Origin: Emticicia agri
GTDB taxonomy: Bacteria > Bacteroidota > Bacteroidia > Cytophagales > Spirosomataceae
Direction: 5' to 3'
Assembly: GCF_004168285.1 (NCBI RefSeq)
Contig: NZ_SEWF01000010.1
Span: forward strand, 1 to 64,000
Length of the DNA: 64,000 bases
Part shown: positions 32,373-55,880 of the stretch, in pieces
Layout: every line of letters begins with the position of its first letter
Position numbering within the stretch: the first letter of the stretch is position 1
The notes under the pieces: generated by a model
The model's database searches: none
The model's input: only the letters and a program-made list of their open reading frames with translations
Told to the model about the DNA's origin: nothing
Program-made: the position numbers and the translations under genes

Positions 32373-33215
32373 TTATTTCACATCTATAACTTCCATTTCA
32401 AAAATCAATGGGCTGAATGGAGGAATAGGGCCACTACCCTGCTCGCCATAAGCTAAGTTTGATGGAATAAAAACGATATTTTTTTCGCCCTTTTTCATCA
32501 TCATCAATGCTTGTTCCCAACCCGGAATTACAGCACCTTGCCCAACAGGAAATTCAATGGGTTGTTTACCAACAGAACTATCAAATATGGTTCCGTTCAT
32601 CAATTTTCCCGTATATGCTACTTTGACGGTATTTCCTGCTATAATGGTTGCACCAGTTCCTTCTTTCACAACGACACGATAAATGCCATATTGTGTCTTA
32701 GTAGCATTAGGAAAATTTTTCTTGGCAAAATTATCCATCAATTGCAACTCATTATTTTTCTTTTCTTCCTGTGCTTTCTGGAATTGTGCCATCGTCTGAA
32801 TGTTTCTTACTTTTACAATAAATCTCATATCAGAGCCTTTAGATACACCTGGAGGCAATGGTTGCTGAGCACGCATAAACAACGAATCGGCGCTTACATA
32901 AATCGTAGCACTATCGCCTACTGACAAGTGAGTAATGGTATTGATAAAATCACCTTTAAACTGACCTTTCTGAACAGGCATGGTTATAGGCTCTTTTCTT
33001 TTATAAGTGTCTGTAAATACAGTATCGTTGGGTGCTTTTATTACTAAATCAAAAGTTACCAGATCTCCTTCTTTTGGTTTTACTTTACCATCTCCGCCTT
33101 CGTGAATCTGGTATTTTGAGCCATCAGACTCTTGGGTTACTTTAAAGTTATCGCAAGAAAAAAGCAAACTTGTTGCTAACGCAAGGCCTAATGTAGGTTT
33201 CAAAAATTTTGTCAT
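32373..33215 (-). CDS. FKBP-type peptidyl-prolyl isomerase lipoprotein
   Basis: A 280-residue lipoprotein (MTKFLKPTLGLALATSLLFSC). A degenerate N-terminal FKBP-like domain (about 45-145, GDLVTFDLVIKAPNDTVFTDT) precedes a complete C-terminal one (about 185-279: VKVAYTGKLMNGTIFDSS, FPVGQGAVIPGWEQALMMMKKGEKNIVFIPSNLAYG, IPPFSPLIFEMEV). The tryptophan in VIPGWEQAL is the usual pocket residue. It probably acts as a periplasmic folding factor with its neighbour; both follow nrnA in one operon. Confidence 0.9.
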   Translation of the reverse strand: MTKFLKPTLGLALATSLLFSCDNFKVTQESDGSKYQIHEGGDGKVKPKEGDLVTFDLVIKAPNDTVFTDTYKRKEPITMPVQKGQFKGDFINTITHLSVGDSATIYVSADSLFMRAQQPLPPGVSKGSDMRFIVKVRNIQTMAQFQKAQEEKKNNELQLMDNFAKKNFPNATKTQYGIYRVVVKEGTGATIIAGNTVKVAYTGKLMNGTIFDSSVGKQPIEFPVGQGAVIPGWEQALMMMKKGEKNIVFIPSNLAYGEQGSGPIPPFSPLIFEMEVIDVK

Positions 33216-50337: not shown

Positions 50338-50957
50338 GAATACTCATTGCCGACGACCACCCTTTCACCCTGATGGGTACCAAAGCCTTTGTTGAGTCTT
50401 TGGGCTATACTATAGAAGATGTATGCTCAAATGGCATAACGGCTTTTAACCTGATTCTGACTCATCAGCCTATTATGGCTATTTTAGATATAAATATGCC
50501 GGGAATGGACGGACTCGAAGTTTTAGAAAAAGTGCATCGGCAGCGGTTAGCCACCCGAATTATTTTACTTACCATGCACAAAGAAATGACTATCTTCAAA
50601 AAAGCTAATCAATGGGGAATAGCAGGGTATATTTTAAAAGAAAATGCACAGGATGAATTACAGAAATGCCTGGAAATAGTAAAAAAAGGAGGCCAGTATA
50701 TAAGCAAAAATCTCGAAAATGATTTGGTGATTGATACCCATTCAGCCGGACAGAGCTATGCTATTGAAAAACTTACTTTTACCGAGAAAAAAGTGCTGGA
50801 ATTGATAGCCCAACAAAAGACCTCAAAACAGATAGCTGATATGCTTTTTATTTCAGAAAAAACAGTAGAGGGCCATCGCAGTAATATTATTCAGAAACTT
50901 GAACTACCTAAAGAAAAAAATATTCTTCTGATATGGGCTACCAAGCATTTTAAATGA
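50334..50957 (+). CDS. LuxR/NarL-type response regulator
   Basis: A 207-residue regulator. Receiver domain: acidic pair IADDHP and phospho-acceptor Asp52 in ILDINMPGMDG; a lysine in GYILKENAQDE. The C-terminal LuxR-type HTH is LTFTEKKVLELIAQQKTSKQIADMLFISEKTVEGHRSNIIQKL. Its start overlaps the kinase stop (ATGA). The palindromic 23-nt element upstream of the pair is a candidate binding site for it. Confidence 0.94.
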   Translation: MRILIADDHPFTLMGTKAFVESLGYTIEDVCSNGITAFNLILTHQPIMAILDINMPGMDGLEVLEKVHRQRLATRIILLTMHKEMTIFKKANQWGIAGYILKENAQDELQKCLEIVKKGGQYISKNLENDLVIDTHSAGQSYAIEKLTFTEKKVLELIAQQKTSKQIADMLFISEKTVEGHRSNIIQKLELPKEKNILLIWATKHFK

Positions 50958-51001
50958 TAAACATTGGCTATCACCCTATCTGGATAATAGCTAATGTTTA
51001 T
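50957..51001. terminator. Convergent hairpin between response regulator and aminotransferase
   Basis: ATAAACATTGGCTAT pairs with ATAGCTAATGTTTAT over 15 bp (one G-T). It overlaps both stop codons. T-tracts are short on both sides. Confidence 0.5.
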
Positions 51002-52143
51002 TCTACTACCTGCTGTTCCGAAGCTATAAGCTCTTTGATAGAACACTTATACTGATTCAATGTATTTTTAATAATTCTTACTACTTTGTTCATTTCTATT
51101 TCAGTACCAATTGTCAGACGAAGGCATTGAGCTATCGGATAGCTAACCATAATGTTTCTGGCTTGCAATGCACTTTTAATTTGCGTTAATAACGCTGCAT
51201 CATAAAAACGAAGCATTAAAAAGTTGGCCGAAGAAGGTAATACTTTAAAAGAAGTTTCATCTGACATTTCGAGAAGCAGATAAAAAATAAAGTCTCTGAG
51301 GTTTTTAATTCGTGCCTGATTTACTTTTAAAACATTCTTATACGATGGATTAGTCAGAAACTCGGTTACTACCGCTTCTGTAAAAATGTTGATTGTAAAC
51401 GGAATTGTATATTTTTTTATCAGGCTAATTAATGAGGCACTTCCGACAGCATATCCGAATCTGATGCCCGGTAAACCATAGCCTTTTGAAAGCGTTTTAA
51501 GCACCAAAAGATTGGCATACTTATTTACCAGCGGTAAAGCAGACTCTCCTCCAAATTCTCCATAAGCCTCATCTACTATAAAAATGCAGTTTACATAGCG
51601 TTTCAATAAAGTTTCTAAGGTTGCCAATGGCAAACTGGCTCCTGTTGGGTTGTTAGGCGATGTAAGAATAATTAAAGAGGGCTCGCTTACCTGAGGGAAA
51701 TGAGTCAGGTCAGAATAATCTTCTTCACTTATATTCCATTGTCTGTAAGGTATTCGCTCATTCTGACAAACCTGATGATAAAATGTAAACGTAGGATTCT
51801 CAATAATTGCTTCTGAAAGAAATTTTGAACAGCAACTGATAATTTGCTGGATAAGCTGAGAAGAACCATTACCCAATACAATATTCTCAGGAGCTAAACC
51901 TGCCTCTTTGGCTATTAAAGTATGTAGTTGAGTCTGATTAAAATCCGGGTAACGATTCCAGGCTAAATCTATCATCTTCTGTGCCAGTTGTTGTTTCAGA
52001 TTCTGCGGAATATCAAAAGGCGTTTCGTTGCAATGTAATCTCATTACTTCTTTTGATTCCAACTCTGCCCAAAGTGTCTGCTCTATTTGTGTATATCCTG
52101 ACTTCTGATTATTAACTGATAATATTTGTTCTGCTGAGTTCAT
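50998..52143 (-). CDS. HisC-like class I/II aminotransferase, partner of the GRAS protein
   Basis: A 381-residue PLP enzyme of the histidinol-phosphate aminotransferase/CobD-like branch: LHCNETPFDIP, RYPDFNQTQLHTLIAKEAGL, GNGSSQLIQQI, LTSPNNPTGASLPL, FIVDEAYGEF, and the Schiff-base lysine in LKTLSKGYGLPGIRFGYAVG. No other his gene is near; it follows the GRAS gene by 44 nt on the same strand. A role in making or modifying a specialised amino-acid-derived small molecule fits better than histidine synthesis (inference). Confidence 0.85.
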   Translation of the reverse strand: MNSAEQILSVNNQKSGYTQIEQTLWAELESKEVMRLHCNETPFDIPQNLKQQLAQKMIDLAWNRYPDFNQTQLHTLIAKEAGLAPENIVLGNGSSQLIQQIISCCSKFLSEAIIENPTFTFYHQVCQNERIPYRQWNISEEDYSDLTHFPQVSEPSLIILTSPNNPTGASLPLATLETLLKRYVNCIFIVDEAYGEFGGESALPLVNKYANLLVLKTLSKGYGLPGIRFGYAVGSASLISLIKKYTIPFTINIFTEAVVTEFLTNPSYKNVLKVNQARIKNLRDFIFYLLLEMSDETSFKVLPSSANFLMLRFYDAALLTQIKSALQARNIMVSYPIAQCLRLTIGTEIEMNKVVRIIKNTLNQYKCSIKELIASEQQVVE

Positions 52144-52187
52144 TTCAATGTTTTTAAATAGGTTTTCAATAAATAGTGTGTAATGTA

Positions 52188-53273
52188 TTAATTTGCCCAG
52201 AACAGGCTCGTTATTTCTTCTCCCTCAAATTCGGTGGCATATCTGTCAGGCAAATCAGTTTTGATATTTGTGCCGTTTAGCTCCAGGTATTCAAATGATG
52301 CCACACGTTTTTGCAGCAGAAACCCGGTTTCTTCAAATAATTGTACCCATTGTTCTGTAGCAAAGTGTTTTTCAACCCTTACTTTTTCTGTATTACCCAA
52401 TACGTCGTCAATTTCACGGCTAAAAAAGAGTTTCAATGCTGCTTTTTCAGTAGTATTAATCGGCAGTGTATCTATAATTTGAAATAGAACCCCGTAGTGA
52501 TTGATACAATTCTGGAAACGCTTCGGGTAAGATGGCTCAAAATGATTAGAATTAGGCTCACTCAACACAAAGGCCTTTACATTCAGATTTTTCAGGATTT
52601 CAAAAACTGCTTTTCGCTGGCTCATCTGCTGAATGTGATGCAAGGCGAAAGACGCATTTACATAGATTCCATCGTTCTCGGCAGGTAACATCTGAGACAG
52701 TTCTCCTTGTGTCATTTGCTCTATAAATGCTTCTTTTATGATTAATTTTACCTCAAAAGAGGCATTTTTACTGGCACGTCTGATATTTTCTTCAGTTAAT
52801 CTTAAAGCATCTGCAAAAGGCTCTATTCCGATAATGGTCAGACATTTAATTTGATTGGCTGATTTATTTTTGAGACCTTCAATCATATTGCTTACCTGAA
52901 AACCTGTGCCAATACCTATATCCATCAGTACCGGATTGGTATGGTTTACTAAAGCATCTATCAGTAATGTATTGATACAATGCTGGCTGAGATTTGCCAG
53001 AGGAAACTGCTGAATCAACAACTCGAACAAGCGAATCTGAGTAATTTCGAAACGTTGTAAATAAATATGTTCCTCCGACTGCCCCACCATCAGGTGTTTT
53101 CTCATGGCTTTGGCAAGCGTGTAAGTAAACATGGCTTCGGGGTCGTCAAGGTCTTCTAAAGATTCATAATAAATATCATTCAATAGGGCTTTGTCAACCT
53201 CGGTTAAGGCATGAGGCATTCTGTTTGCTAAATCTTTCAGAATCATCCGGGTATTTTCTAACATAGTTTTCAT
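52188..53273 (-). CDS. Bacterial GRAS-domain protein (SAM-methyltransferase-like Rossmann fold)
   Basis: A 361-residue soluble protein. Its order of motifs matches GRAS domains: a helical N-terminus with IRLFELLIQQFPLANLSQHCINTLLIDAL, VLMDIGIGTGFQVSNMIEGL (VHIID-like, SAM-binding-type loop), LTIIGIEPF, YVNASFALHHI, FVLSEPNSNH, then FFSREIDDVLGN..EKVRVEKHFATEQWVQLFEETGF, which parallels the plant REI..V..CEG..R.ERHE...W......GF signature, and a C-terminal aromatic segment. Plant GRAS proteins are transcriptional regulators; bacterial ones are predicted small-molecule methyltransferases or binders. It is followed by a HisC-like aminotransferase. Confidence 0.8.
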   Translation of the reverse strand: MKTMLENTRMILKDLANRMPHALTEVDKALLNDIYYESLEDLDDPEAMFTYTLAKAMRKHLMVGQSEEHIYLQRFEITQIRLFELLIQQFPLANLSQHCINTLLIDALVNHTNPVLMDIGIGTGFQVSNMIEGLKNKSANQIKCLTIIGIEPFADALRLTEENIRRASKNASFEVKLIIKEAFIEQMTQGELSQMLPAENDGIYVNASFALHHIQQMSQRKAVFEILKNLNVKAFVLSEPNSNHFEPSYPKRFQNCINHYGVLFQIIDTLPINTTEKAALKLFFSREIDDVLGNTEKVRVEKHFATEQWVQLFEETGFLLQKRVASFEYLELNGTNIKTDLPDRYATEFEGEEITSLFWAN

Positions 53274-53301
53274 AGAATATTTTTCGTTTAGATTGATGCC
53301 T

Positions 53302-53332
53302 CAAAACTATTCTATGAAACCCGCTCGGTAAA
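53302..53332 (-). promoter_or_regulatory. Candidate promoter of the GRAS-aminotransferase operon
   Basis: On the minus strand: TTTA (53332-53329), 19 nt, TAGTTTTG (53309-53302), 28 nt before the ATG. Confidence 0.45.
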
Positions 53333-53491
53333 TTTTTTTTAGACAAAGGGCAGGAAATGAATATTGAATGACTTTCAATTAGAAATGAGTCGAAAAGCAG
53401 AAATCCTGATAAACAGGGAGTTTGAGGATTCTCCTGATGTAGAAAGTAGAAATAATAAGCCTTTTTACGAAAGAGATGTATTAACATAGAA

Positions 53492-53587
53492 TAGAGTTCT
53501 GCAAGTTTCTACCGTTTCATGCAGGCGTTTAATAGTATAACTATCAAATCTACCTGCATTTCTAACGGCAACCCTCATAGAACTCTA
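53492..53587. repeat. Long imperfect hairpin in the GRAS-subtilase gap
   Basis: TAGAGTTCT (53492-53500 region) pairs with AGAACTCTA (53579-53587), then inward CCGTT with AACGG and TGCAGG with CCTGCA, around an AT-rich core. It occupies the middle of the 360-nt gap between the subtilase stop and the GRAS promoter. It may be a structured 3' element of the subtilase mRNA or a palindromic repeat. The rest of the gap has no ORF that I trust. Confidence 0.5.
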
Positions 53588-53633
53588 ATCGAATGATTAA
53601 ATTTAACCTTATAATAGCTGAATTTTTACACAA

Positions 53634-55880
53634 TCAATTTTCACATCCACCGATAGTAGCCTGAAACACTGCACCTGTGGCTACTTCAAAAGTATTTCCA
53701 CCGCCATTGGCACTTGGTTTCAATTCAATTTTATTTCCGGCTCTTAAAGTTAATTTGGCAGTACCCGAAAGCCTATTGCTGGCTTCAATAGAATTACTTG
53801 CTTTAAGAGAAAGGGTACCTGTAACCATATTATCAGTCGGGTTTACCAATGTAAGCGTAGCAGGGCAAGGAGCACCACCGCCTTCTAAGATAACTGTAAC
53901 ACCGAATCTTGCACTCTCGCATCCGTTGACCGTTTGTGAAGCATAATAAATAGTACCATCAACCAATGGTGTAGTGCTATTAAGCTGTGTACCACCTGTA
54001 GGTGCACTATACCATTTAATTCCGGTTCCTGTAATTACTATATCTGCAATAGTAGAGCCATCTGCCAATGTCTGGTTTGCAGTACCCGTTGGCGCAGCCA
54101 TCATAGTACCTGTTACTATTAGCGAAACCATTCTTGCATCTTCAGGAGATGTAGTTTTCTTTCTGATAGCAATGCGGTATTCCTGATTAGGGGTTGGGTT
54201 ATTAATTTTCACTTGTTTGTAGTTATTGCCATTTCCATCAAACCAGGTAGCAGAAATGGTAGCAGTTCCGGCTCTGTTAGCCATCGTAACCGGTTTCCAT
54301 GTACGGGTATCTGCATTGGTACTCATGTTTCTTACCAACATATCAAAATCATATACCATTCTGCTTGTGGTTGCGTCAATAGGCTCTTCATCCGTTTGTT
54401 CAGCACCTTCATCATCCGTCCAGGCTATTGATACAATCAGAGGTTCACAACCACTGGCTCTCACCGTACGATATAATTCTGCTGTTGAATTATTAGTAGG
54501 GTTAGCCGTAATTTCTTCAATGTAAGCACCCTTACTTGTAGCATCAGTATGAGCCTGATTTGCAGGATTTACAGAGCCACTTCTGTACTTAATAGCATTG
54601 GCGGCTTTTTCTATGTTTACCAATCCCCAGCCAAATTTAGAGTCCGGGCCTATATTACCTAAATCTTCTGCCGTACCTAACAAAAGAGCTTTCAACGTTG
54701 AGGCTTTCATGTAAGAACCATTAAGCTGGTTATAATACTGTTGTAACAACAAACCCGAAGCTGCCACGGCAGGCGTAGCATAAGAAGTTCCGCTTGATTC
54801 ATCGCCACTACCACTATAAGCAGTATTAGACGGAGTACTGGTACCTTCAATAGCAAAAAGCGACGAATTAATACCTGTTCCTTTGGCAACTACATCAGGT
54901 TTTACACGTCCATCATCAGTCGGCCCCCAGTTACTATACGATGACATGGATTTATCTCCATTCACTGCCCCTACTGTAACCACATTTTTAGAGGCCGATG
55001 TACCTGTAACCATATCATAACCAAGTTTAGTCCAGTTACCATTGATATGCTTATTCTGGTCATCTGTAGCATTAGGGTCCTGCTCATTACCTACCGCTAC
55101 AAATGGTAAATAATTAGGTGCATTTTTAACCACCACGTCCATAGCTACAGATGAGGCATCATAAGCACCAAATCGCCAGAGTGGGTCTCCCTCGCCATTA
55201 GTATAACCATAAGAATGGTTAGAAATCAGGAAACCTTGCCCTGCAAAGGCTGTCATTTCTGTATAATCATTGTCCCAGTCGTAATTTCTGGCAGTTGCTC
55301 CATAGGCAATTCCACGTGCCGATGGTTGATTGGCAATGTCTTTCCCTACTATAGTACCCGAAACGTGTGTCTGGTGATTATTCCCTTTATAATTGTCTGC
55401 ACTCCCATCCATCGTTTGTCCGGCTTGCATAGCTACTTTACCTGAGAGTAATTCATGGGTAGCTCTTACTTGTCCACCATCCCATATACCTGCTACCATG
55501 TTAGTCCCTGTAATATTCACTCCTACAGAACCACCGCTATAGAGCTGATTGGCTTTAATCAATTCGCCTGATGCCCGGTTTTTAGTATTAATATATACGG
55601 GATTACCCTTGGCATCAATGTATTTCAGGTAGTATAAAGAACCGTTTTTTACAAAACTTCTTTTTAATTGTGAATTTTTAGCTAAAAATTCCTGTATTTT
55701 TTTTTCGTCCTGCTCAAACCTTCTTTGAGATTGTTGTATCAAAGCATTGAAATTGACACGGGCATTGCCGTTAGTATAAGACTGAACTATTTTTTGTCTT
55801 TCTTCTTCAGTTTGTGCCTGCACAGAAAGAACACAACCCCAGAGCAGGGCTATTAATAAACGGGTATAGATGATTTTCAT
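53634..55880 (-). CDS. Secreted S8 subtilisin-like peptidase with C-terminal 3-coathanger-type domain
   Basis: A 748-residue extracellular protease: signal peptide MKIIYTRLLIALLWGCVLSVQAQ, propeptide (about 24-115), catalytic domain with Asp134 (GIWDGG), His169 (NHQTHVSG) and Ser366 (SGTSYATP), a beta-sandwich region with a proprotein-convertase-like P domain character, and a C-terminal cysteine-flanked domain (APCPATLTLVNPT... to IGGCEN) of the 3-coathanger stack type (TAKLTLRAGNKIELKPSANGGGNTFEVATGA). Preceded by a LytTR regulator gene 20 nt upstream, with which it forms an operon. Confidence 0.9.
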   Translation of the reverse strand: MKIIYTRLLIALLWGCVLSVQAQTEEERQKIVQSYTNGNARVNFNALIQQSQRRFEQDEKKIQEFLAKNSQLKRSFVKNGSLYYLKYIDAKGNPVYINTKNRASGELIKANQLYSGGSVGVNITGTNMVAGIWDGGQVRATHELLSGKVAMQAGQTMDGSADNYKGNNHQTHVSGTIVGKDIANQPSARGIAYGATARNYDWDNDYTEMTAFAGQGFLISNHSYGYTNGEGDPLWRFGAYDASSVAMDVVVKNAPNYLPFVAVGNEQDPNATDDQNKHINGNWTKLGYDMVTGTSASKNVVTVGAVNGDKSMSSYSNWGPTDDGRVKPDVVAKGTGINSSLFAIEGTSTPSNTAYSGSGDESSGTSYATPAVAASGLLLQQYYNQLNGSYMKASTLKALLLGTAEDLGNIGPDSKFGWGLVNIEKAANAIKYRSGSVNPANQAHTDATSKGAYIEEITANPTNNSTAELYRTVRASGCEPLIVSIAWTDDEGAEQTDEEPIDATTSRMVYDFDMLVRNMSTNADTRTWKPVTMANRAGTATISATWFDGNGNNYKQVKINNPTPNQEYRIAIRKKTTSPEDARMVSLIVTGTMMAAPTGTANQTLADGSTIADIVITGTGIKWYSAPTGGTQLNSTTPLVDGTIYYASQTVNGCESARFGVTVILEGGGAPCPATLTLVNPTDNMVTGTLSLKASNSIEASNRLSGTAKLTLRAGNKIELKPSANGGGNTFEVATGAVFQATIGGCEN

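Follow-up and report, generated by a model that had tools for sequence, protein, structure and literature searches.

A gene pair in the window, by which we mean the whole stretch of 64,000 nucleotides analysed here (Emticicia agri, contig NZ_SEWF01000010.1, positions 1 to 64,000), encodes a GRAS-domain protein and a HisC-like aminotransferase. Our preferred reading, to which we give a probability of slightly under one half, is that the two proteins form a metabolic unit of a predicted S-adenosylmethionine (SAM)-dependent methyltransferase and an aminotransferase, in which a keto acid would be methylated, plausibly at the beta carbon. Most likely, the pair would serve to build or degrade a hydrophobic or aromatic amino acid that carries a methyl group. 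The original prediction had proposed that the pair synthesizes or modifies an amino-acid-derived small molecule, and this interpretation is supported in substance; the suggestion that the product might be a signal received no direct support. Both open reading frames (ORFs) that it named are present on the minus strand (Table 1), and the aminotransferase gene lies downstream of the GRAS gene on the same strand, 44 bases apart.

The assignment to the GRAS family had been made from sequence motifs and was confirmed by a search with the Pfam profile PF03514. The window protein matched over residues 52–319 with 92.3 bits (E 3.8e-26; cut-off 27), while the best ordinary methyltransferase families reached only 14.4 bits in Pfam (Methyltransf_12) and 19.3 bits in NCBIfam (CbiT). 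It was the only match in the genome of 6.65 Mb, and none of the 14 control genomes gave a match. The top matches in a phmmer search against PDB chains were the plant proteins DELLA RGA (7e-10) and rice SCL7 (5hyz, 1.5e-6). All 34 members of our GRAS alignment A1 matched PF03514. The order of the motifs DIGIGTG, EPxxxH, FFxREI, RxE(K/R)H and W309 was kept, and the key residues, namely the three glycines, HH, EP...H, FF.RE, R.E and W, were invariant in the 34 rows. An aminotransferase-GRAS fusion protein, described below, could be aligned with RGA, SCL7 and SCL3 across the VHIID-, PFYRE- and SAW-like motifs.

By its GxGxG loop and by profile similarity, the GRAS protein can be assigned to the class I SAM methyltransferase superfamily. 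The hhalign comparison of assorted class I methyltransferases with a profile built from 53 bacterial GRAS rows resulted in 97% probability (E 5.8e-11), and the alignment brought together the SAM loops, the LHH regions and the acidic positions that follow strand 2. The control comparisons with phosphotriesterase, lactonase and dehydrogenase, all small sets of near-identical rows, gave <1% each. The comparison with aminotransferases gave 53% for all GRAS rows and 91% for the GRAS parts of fusions, with 0% identity over 32–38 columns, and 0.23% when the rows of the window type and of the phosphotriesterase (PTE) type were used alone. We took this similarity to aminotransferases as an artefact because the fused rows in both sets have a common linker. 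Methyltransf_12 matched 26 of the 34 GRAS members with an E-value limit of 1 (lowest value 5.2e-6). When PDB chains were searched with A1, 15 plant GRAS sequences came first, followed by an arsenite methyltransferase (0.0057), by flagellin (0.011, a chance match) and by other methyltransferases including MT1 of AprA (0.11). The bacterial GRAS protein has the appearance of a functional METHYLTRANSFERASE. H244 was replaced by Phe in two bacterial rows, the Skermanella plasmid protein L096 among them. The idea that H212, H213, E239 and H244 might form a metal site comes from what we take to be the ligands of the methyltransferase MppJ.

GRAS genes were as rare in bacteria as had been supposed, with PF03514 matches in 4 of 395 genomes sampled across the phylum, one of them being that of the window. 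Matches were found in 19/222 genomes of the window's family (again with its own genome), 13/291 genomes drawn from the order, 22/204 genomes of the family of the fusion-bearing genome G749 and 1/244 genomes of the class of genome G356. These sampling sets overlap and together hold 51 distinct loci: 20 of the window's family, two new ones from the phylum, nine from the order, 20 from the family of G749 and none from the class of G356. The pairing was indeed conserved in relatives, as an aminotransferase was linked to GRAS at 33 of the 51 loci, at 11 as a neighbour and at 22 as a fusion. In the window's family, it adjoined the GRAS gene on the same strand at 9 of 20 loci, and it was present beside GRAS at both of the distant loci L060 and L061. 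All 22 loci of genus g267 encode single proteins of 713–764 aa with the aminotransferase first and GRAS second (Pfam domains shown for L062). L061 is the sole GRAS gene found in 244 genomes of its class, the aminotransferase preceding GRAS, and looks like a horizontally acquired two-gene unit.

The remaining 11 loci of the window's family had another neighbour, of 331 aa at seven loci and of 374–375 aa at four. A PTE-type partner stands beside GRAS at L035, L036, L039, L040, L042, L044 and L045, and a lactonase-type partner at L034, L037, L038 and L041. The partner of L035 matched PF02126 (phosphotriesterase family) and that of L034 matched PF10282 (7-bladed lactonase); the class of the other ones was judged by size and place. 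The two N-termini inspected among these partners resemble export signals. Genome G164 has two GRAS copies, one linked to an aminotransferase and one to a PTE-type gene. The GRAS frame of L045 (L045:7827-8756, 309 aa) has short ORFs directly 5' and is perhaps shortened at its N-terminus. None of the seven other non-fused loci of the order had such an aminotransferase in the fetched stretches of 10–17 kb. Loci L053–L058, which belong to further families of the order, encode a small protein (about 130–160 aa) near GRAS; those of L053, L054 and L056 had no Pfam match at E 0.001, and the remaining ones were judged by size. Outside the 51 loci, two alphaproteobacterial GRAS genes on Skermanella plasmids (L096 and L097; 27–29% identity over 66% of the window protein) have genes for a PAS sensor and a response regulator next to them, and the stretch shown contains no gene annotated as an aminotransferase.

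The link between GRAS and the aminotransferase probably arose twice, because the aminotransferase lineages differ and the gene orders are opposite. In a tree of 49 aminotransferase rows (8 of the 22 fusions; duplicates and loci without a 1e-8 match to the window enzyme omitted), the window type (9 rows) joined L060, and the fused enzymes formed a separate clade. The approximately unbiased (AU) test, with the longest row omitted, rejected one common clade for all GRAS-linked aminotransferases (p-AU 0.003) but not a clade of the fusions and L061 (p-AU 0.258). The rows were grouped by linkage and the test was run after inspection of the tree, with several long rows and a program warning. GRAS comes first in L060 and the window type, whereas it follows the aminotransferase in L061 and the fusions. 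That these genes came together repeatedly is the best indication of a common pathway, and the fused protein suggests one pathway for the two activities. The surroundings were hardly common to the loci, and therefore it was the two-gene unit rather than its neighbourhood that was kept. Among ten aminotransferase-paired neighbourhoods (ORFs from a simple in-house caller), matches at E 1e-20 outside the pair itself were confined to the near-identical trio L048/L050/L052, besides two weak matches (L046-L051, 36%; L043-L061, 28%).

The window aminotransferase matched PF00155 (Aminotran_1_2) with an E-value of 9.5e-50. Its best NCBIfam match was TIGR01141 (HisC) with 240 bits, below the cut-off of 276.55, which fits the earlier description as HisC-like. 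A clear HisC ortholog (349 bits) is located on contig C6, HisD and HisG are on contig C18 and the pair is on contig C10; the pair is thus outside any histidine-biosynthesis context, as had been stated. The ortholog belongs to a clade of 15 with support 100/100, which includes the HisC of G749 adjoining hisD and hisG. In genome G432, HisD, HisG and an over-cut-off HisC were not found, and the GRAS-aminotransferase pair was present. The absence of HisD and HisG there is likely but unproven, since both searches found 13 of 14 controls and missed Bacillus subtilis. N165, D191, Y194, K220, R228 and R342 are fixed in 33/33 GRAS-linked aminotransferases. We assume the roles of these conserved residues of the pyridoxal phosphate (PLP) site, including K220, from family knowledge.

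The substrate pocket distinguishes the window enzyme from HisC. Aromatic aminotransferase (ArAT; Rv3772, 4R2N) and histidinol-phosphate aminotransferase (HspAT) of Mycobacterium tuberculosis belong to subfamily I-beta like the window enzyme. According to PMC4703992, their pockets contain V86, F110, L112 and F246 (ArAT) and N103, Y127, M129 and Y261 (HspAT). The residues of the window enzyme mapped by alignment to these positions are S95, F119, F121 and F249, so that three of the four are alike in kind to the ArAT tetrad, with Ser replacing Val. The window clade has S in 9/9, F in 9/9, F in 7/9 and F in 9/9; the distant partners have A/Y/L/F (L060) and T/F/A/F (L061), and the fusions have A in 21/22, Y in 21/22, L in 22/22 and Y in 16/22. 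In HisC of Bacteroidota, the pocket was D, Y, M, Y in 15/15. The HisC-labelled rows L100 (plasmid) and L115 were excluded from these 15; when they were included, the first position was D in 16/17 and N in 1/17. All 33 GRAS-linked aminotransferases lacked the D and M of the 15 HisC proteins at two pocket positions. The pocket of the window enzyme resembles that of ArAT more than that of HspAT, and the enzyme is active-looking but probably not a HisC. ArAT is not its nearest relative, as the best PDB match was HisC2 3euc with 115 bits compared to 87 bits for 4r2n; for the fused aminotransferase L062, ArAT 4r2n was the top PDB hit.

Keto acids are good substrates for C-methylation. In the mechanism that we prefer, the aminotransferase would interconvert an aromatic or hydrophobic amino acid and its alpha-keto acid, and the GRAS enzyme would methylate the latter, for which the acidic beta carbon is a plausible site. 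The aminotransferase may provide the keto acid, or it may turn the methylated keto acid into a beta-methyl amino acid. A pair of methyltransferase and aminotransferase is also present in the MrsA/MrsB system of 3-methylarginine, with TIGR04543 (2-ketoarginine methyltransferase) corresponding to MrsA. Another parallel, if our preferred explanation is right, is MppJ with TyrB, a keto-acid C-methyltransferase and an aromatic aminotransferase: MppJ methylates phenylpyruvate and TyrB then transaminates the product to beta-methylphenylalanine, as described in PMC11496134. MppJ is a COMT-type enzyme and contains an iron site (PMC10784701), whereas the GRAS protein belongs to another family and its metal site is hypothetical.

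We ranked keto-acid methylation as most likely and other methylations next. The same two-enzyme unit might place the methyl group elsewhere, on a nitrogen, oxygen or sulfur atom of an amino acid or of something derived from it; the aminotransferase step could come first or second, and the unit might serve breakdown instead of synthesis. We regard this as somewhat unlikely, but it is the best of the alternatives. Class I methyltransferases of all these kinds have the fold that was matched by hhalign, and the lactonase-like and phosphotriesterase-like partners in relatives suggest ester or lactone products of GRAS enzymes. The invariant H212, H213 and E239 and the near-invariant H244 would instead fit C-methylation, as they might form an acid-base or metal centre for it.

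Several results weigh against keto-acid methylation by a dedicated pair. The match of the window GRAS protein to TIGR04543, which might have pointed to a MrsA-like enzyme, had only 17.4 bits (E 0.0019) compared to a cut-off of 425, and 11 of the 34 GRAS members gave such weak matches. As weak matches occurred in 162 of 247 genomes, none over the cut-off, TIGR04543 behaves as a general marker of the methyltransferase fold, and we dropped it as a specific clue. The hhalign comparison of bacterial GRAS with a COMT-like set, the family of MppJ, gave 0.5%; this set had two rows only (L149 and L151), which were taken as COMT-like since they cover the N-terminal part of TIGR04543. An AlphaFold2 model of the GRAS protein from an alignment of three proteins with 83–84% identity was unusable (pLDDT 39, pTM 0.32). 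The aminotransferase is not obligatory for GRAS, which stands alone or with a different partner at 18 of the 51 loci; 11 of these have the phosphotriesterase- or lactonase-like gene instead. This swapping of partners counts against one fixed pathway for all bacterial GRAS proteins and suggests that their substrates differ between clades. On the side of the aminotransferase, three fused enzymes (297–308 bits) and that of L061 (290 bits) exceeded the HisC cut-off, and most fused enzymes keep Tyr at two pocket positions. The changed pocket is also not peculiar to GRAS-linked enzymes, since 13 HisC-like rows unlinked to GRAS depart from the HisC pocket too.

It is improbable that the GRAS protein lacks catalysis and serves instead for binding or regulation, as in plants, by sensing a product of the aminotransferase. 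Its plant relatives are regulators, and GRAS and the aminotransferase could form a feedback control; however, the SAM loop is intact in all 53 bacterial GRAS proteins and altered in RGA (S/N/G at the three loop glycines, two altered) and SCL7 (G/V/G, one altered), and no DNA-binding family was among the Pfam matches of the window protein at E up to 0.1. More improbable still is a second histidinol-phosphate aminotransferase with a meaningless GRAS neighbourhood, since this reading, favored by the TIGR01141 matches and by the grouping of the second HisC of G356 (L115) as sister to the window type and L060 (97/83), is opposed by the separate HisC ortholog, the lack of the HisC pocket residues in 33/33 enzymes, the presence of the pair where HisD and HisG were not found and the two probable origins of the link, one of them a fusion.

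A literature search, mostly at the level of listed matches, found no biochemical test of a bacterial GRAS protein, and to this extent the family is uncharacterised as the original prediction had said. Its relationship to methyltransferases is not new. A prediction of small-molecule methylases for GRAS was reportedly made by Zhang, Iyer and Aravind in 2012. The same study (Bioinformatics 28:2407) placed GRAS among the Rossmann methyltransferases, according to PMC4279901 and PMC4609302. The bacterial GRAS proteins of that study are alike in the GRAS domain and the bacterial host; the aminotransferase partner, its two formats and the pocket are shown here. The link with an aminotransferase was not named in the titles and abstract beginnings among the matches listed or in the available passages on bacterial GRAS, and its novelty is not established.

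The plant GRAS proteins DELLA RGA, SCL7, SCL3, SCR and SHR are homologous to bacterial GRAS over most or all of the domain; unlike the bacterial proteins, they have no aminotransferase, and RGA and SCL7 have no intact glycine loop. The closest bacterial match found here to plant GRAS was a fused aminotransferase-GRAS protein. In a tree of 36 bacterial rows (6 of the 22 fusions) and two long-branched plant rows (RGA and SCL7), with a bacterial sample of one phylum and two plasmids, the fusions were sister to the plant rows (95/90) and L061 joined them (100/99). The grouping of RGA with the fusions persisted (100/99) when SCL7, L061 and the two Skermanella rows were left out. PF03514 scores were 279–322 bits for the fusions, 238 for L061 and 78–121 for the other bacterial GRAS proteins; we take this model to be built mainly on plant sequences. 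That one bacterial GRAS subgroup forms a clade with plants has already been published (PMC12448838, citing Fang et al. 2017), and PMC9942845 and PMC12448838 give soil bacteria as the donor of plant GRAS. The aminotransferase linkage of the plant-like bacterial GRAS is, as far as can be told, new.

We consider it unlikely, yet worth stating, that plant GRAS proteins (DELLAs, SCARECROW, SHORT-ROOT) derive from a bacterial methyltransferase of alpha-keto acids or amino acids whose partner, either separate or in the same chain, was an aromatic-type aminotransferase. The donor would have been close to the aminotransferase-GRAS fusions, and the disused site may bind an amino-acid-derived ligand in some plant GRAS proteins. 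GRAS proteins are developmental regulators in land plants, and the pair hints at the role of GRAS before plants. The bacterial substrate, once found, would tell for which ligand the pocket of plant GRAS was originally shaped. The partner enzyme has a predictable substrate class and therefore provides a concrete list for assays, namely aromatic keto acids with SAM.

Table 1. Features of the GRAS-aminotransferase locus (positions in the window).
Feature	Position	Strand	Remarks
GRAS-domain protein gene, 361 aa, ATG start, first of pair	52188..53273	-	PF03514 92.3 bits; predicted SAM-dependent methyltransferase
HisC-superfamily PLP aminotransferase gene, 381 aa, ATG start, second of pair	50998..52143	-	PF00155; candidate aromatic-type substrate pocket
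SAM-binding glycine-rich loop DIGIGTGFQ, GRAS residues 118-126	52896..52922	-	G120, G122 and G124 in 53/53 bacterial GRAS
H212-H213 of GRAS, candidate active-site or metal residues	52635..52640	-	each in 53/53 bacterial GRAS
E239-P-x-x-x-H244 of GRAS, candidate active-site residues	52542..52559	-	E239 in 53/53, H244 in 51/53
PLP-binding lysine K220 of aminotransferase	51484..51486	-	fixed in 33/33 GRAS-linked aminotransferases
Terminator-like stem directly after aminotransferase stop	50967..50991	-	weak alone: 1 found, shuffle mean 1.6
-7-like box TANNTTTG (tagttttg) 5' of GRAS start, possible operon promoter	53302..53309	-	in 3/3 aligned Emticicia-type leaders

GRAS proteins with 83–84% identity to that of the window were present in two Emticicia genomes, and two scans of viral contigs showed no relative. 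The -7-like box listed in Table 1 was called by the TANNTTTG consensus. A -33 partner for this box was looked for 5' of GRAS and not found. The promoter pattern TTTG-N18-22-TANNTTTG occurred 6 times in the window (3.5 expected) and not at the GRAS gene; sigma-70-type promoters were found 8 times (10 expected). An Rfam scan of positions 50500–54200 gave no match.

Among the window ORFs ending beyond position 33000, the pair alone matched any of 30 fetched neighbourhoods (E 1e-10), and for this reason the nearby trp genes were set aside as context. A long, near-perfect hairpin is located between the S8 peptidase and GRAS genes (window 53475–53600; -45.5 kcal/mol, z -7.5). It had no Rfam match and was set aside as a leader element, being present in a single copy in the genome and giving no blastn match in the fetched relatives. 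Emticicia sp. C21 has a different stable hairpin 5' of its GRAS gene (L021:5551-5660; about -44 kcal/mol in a 110-base window).

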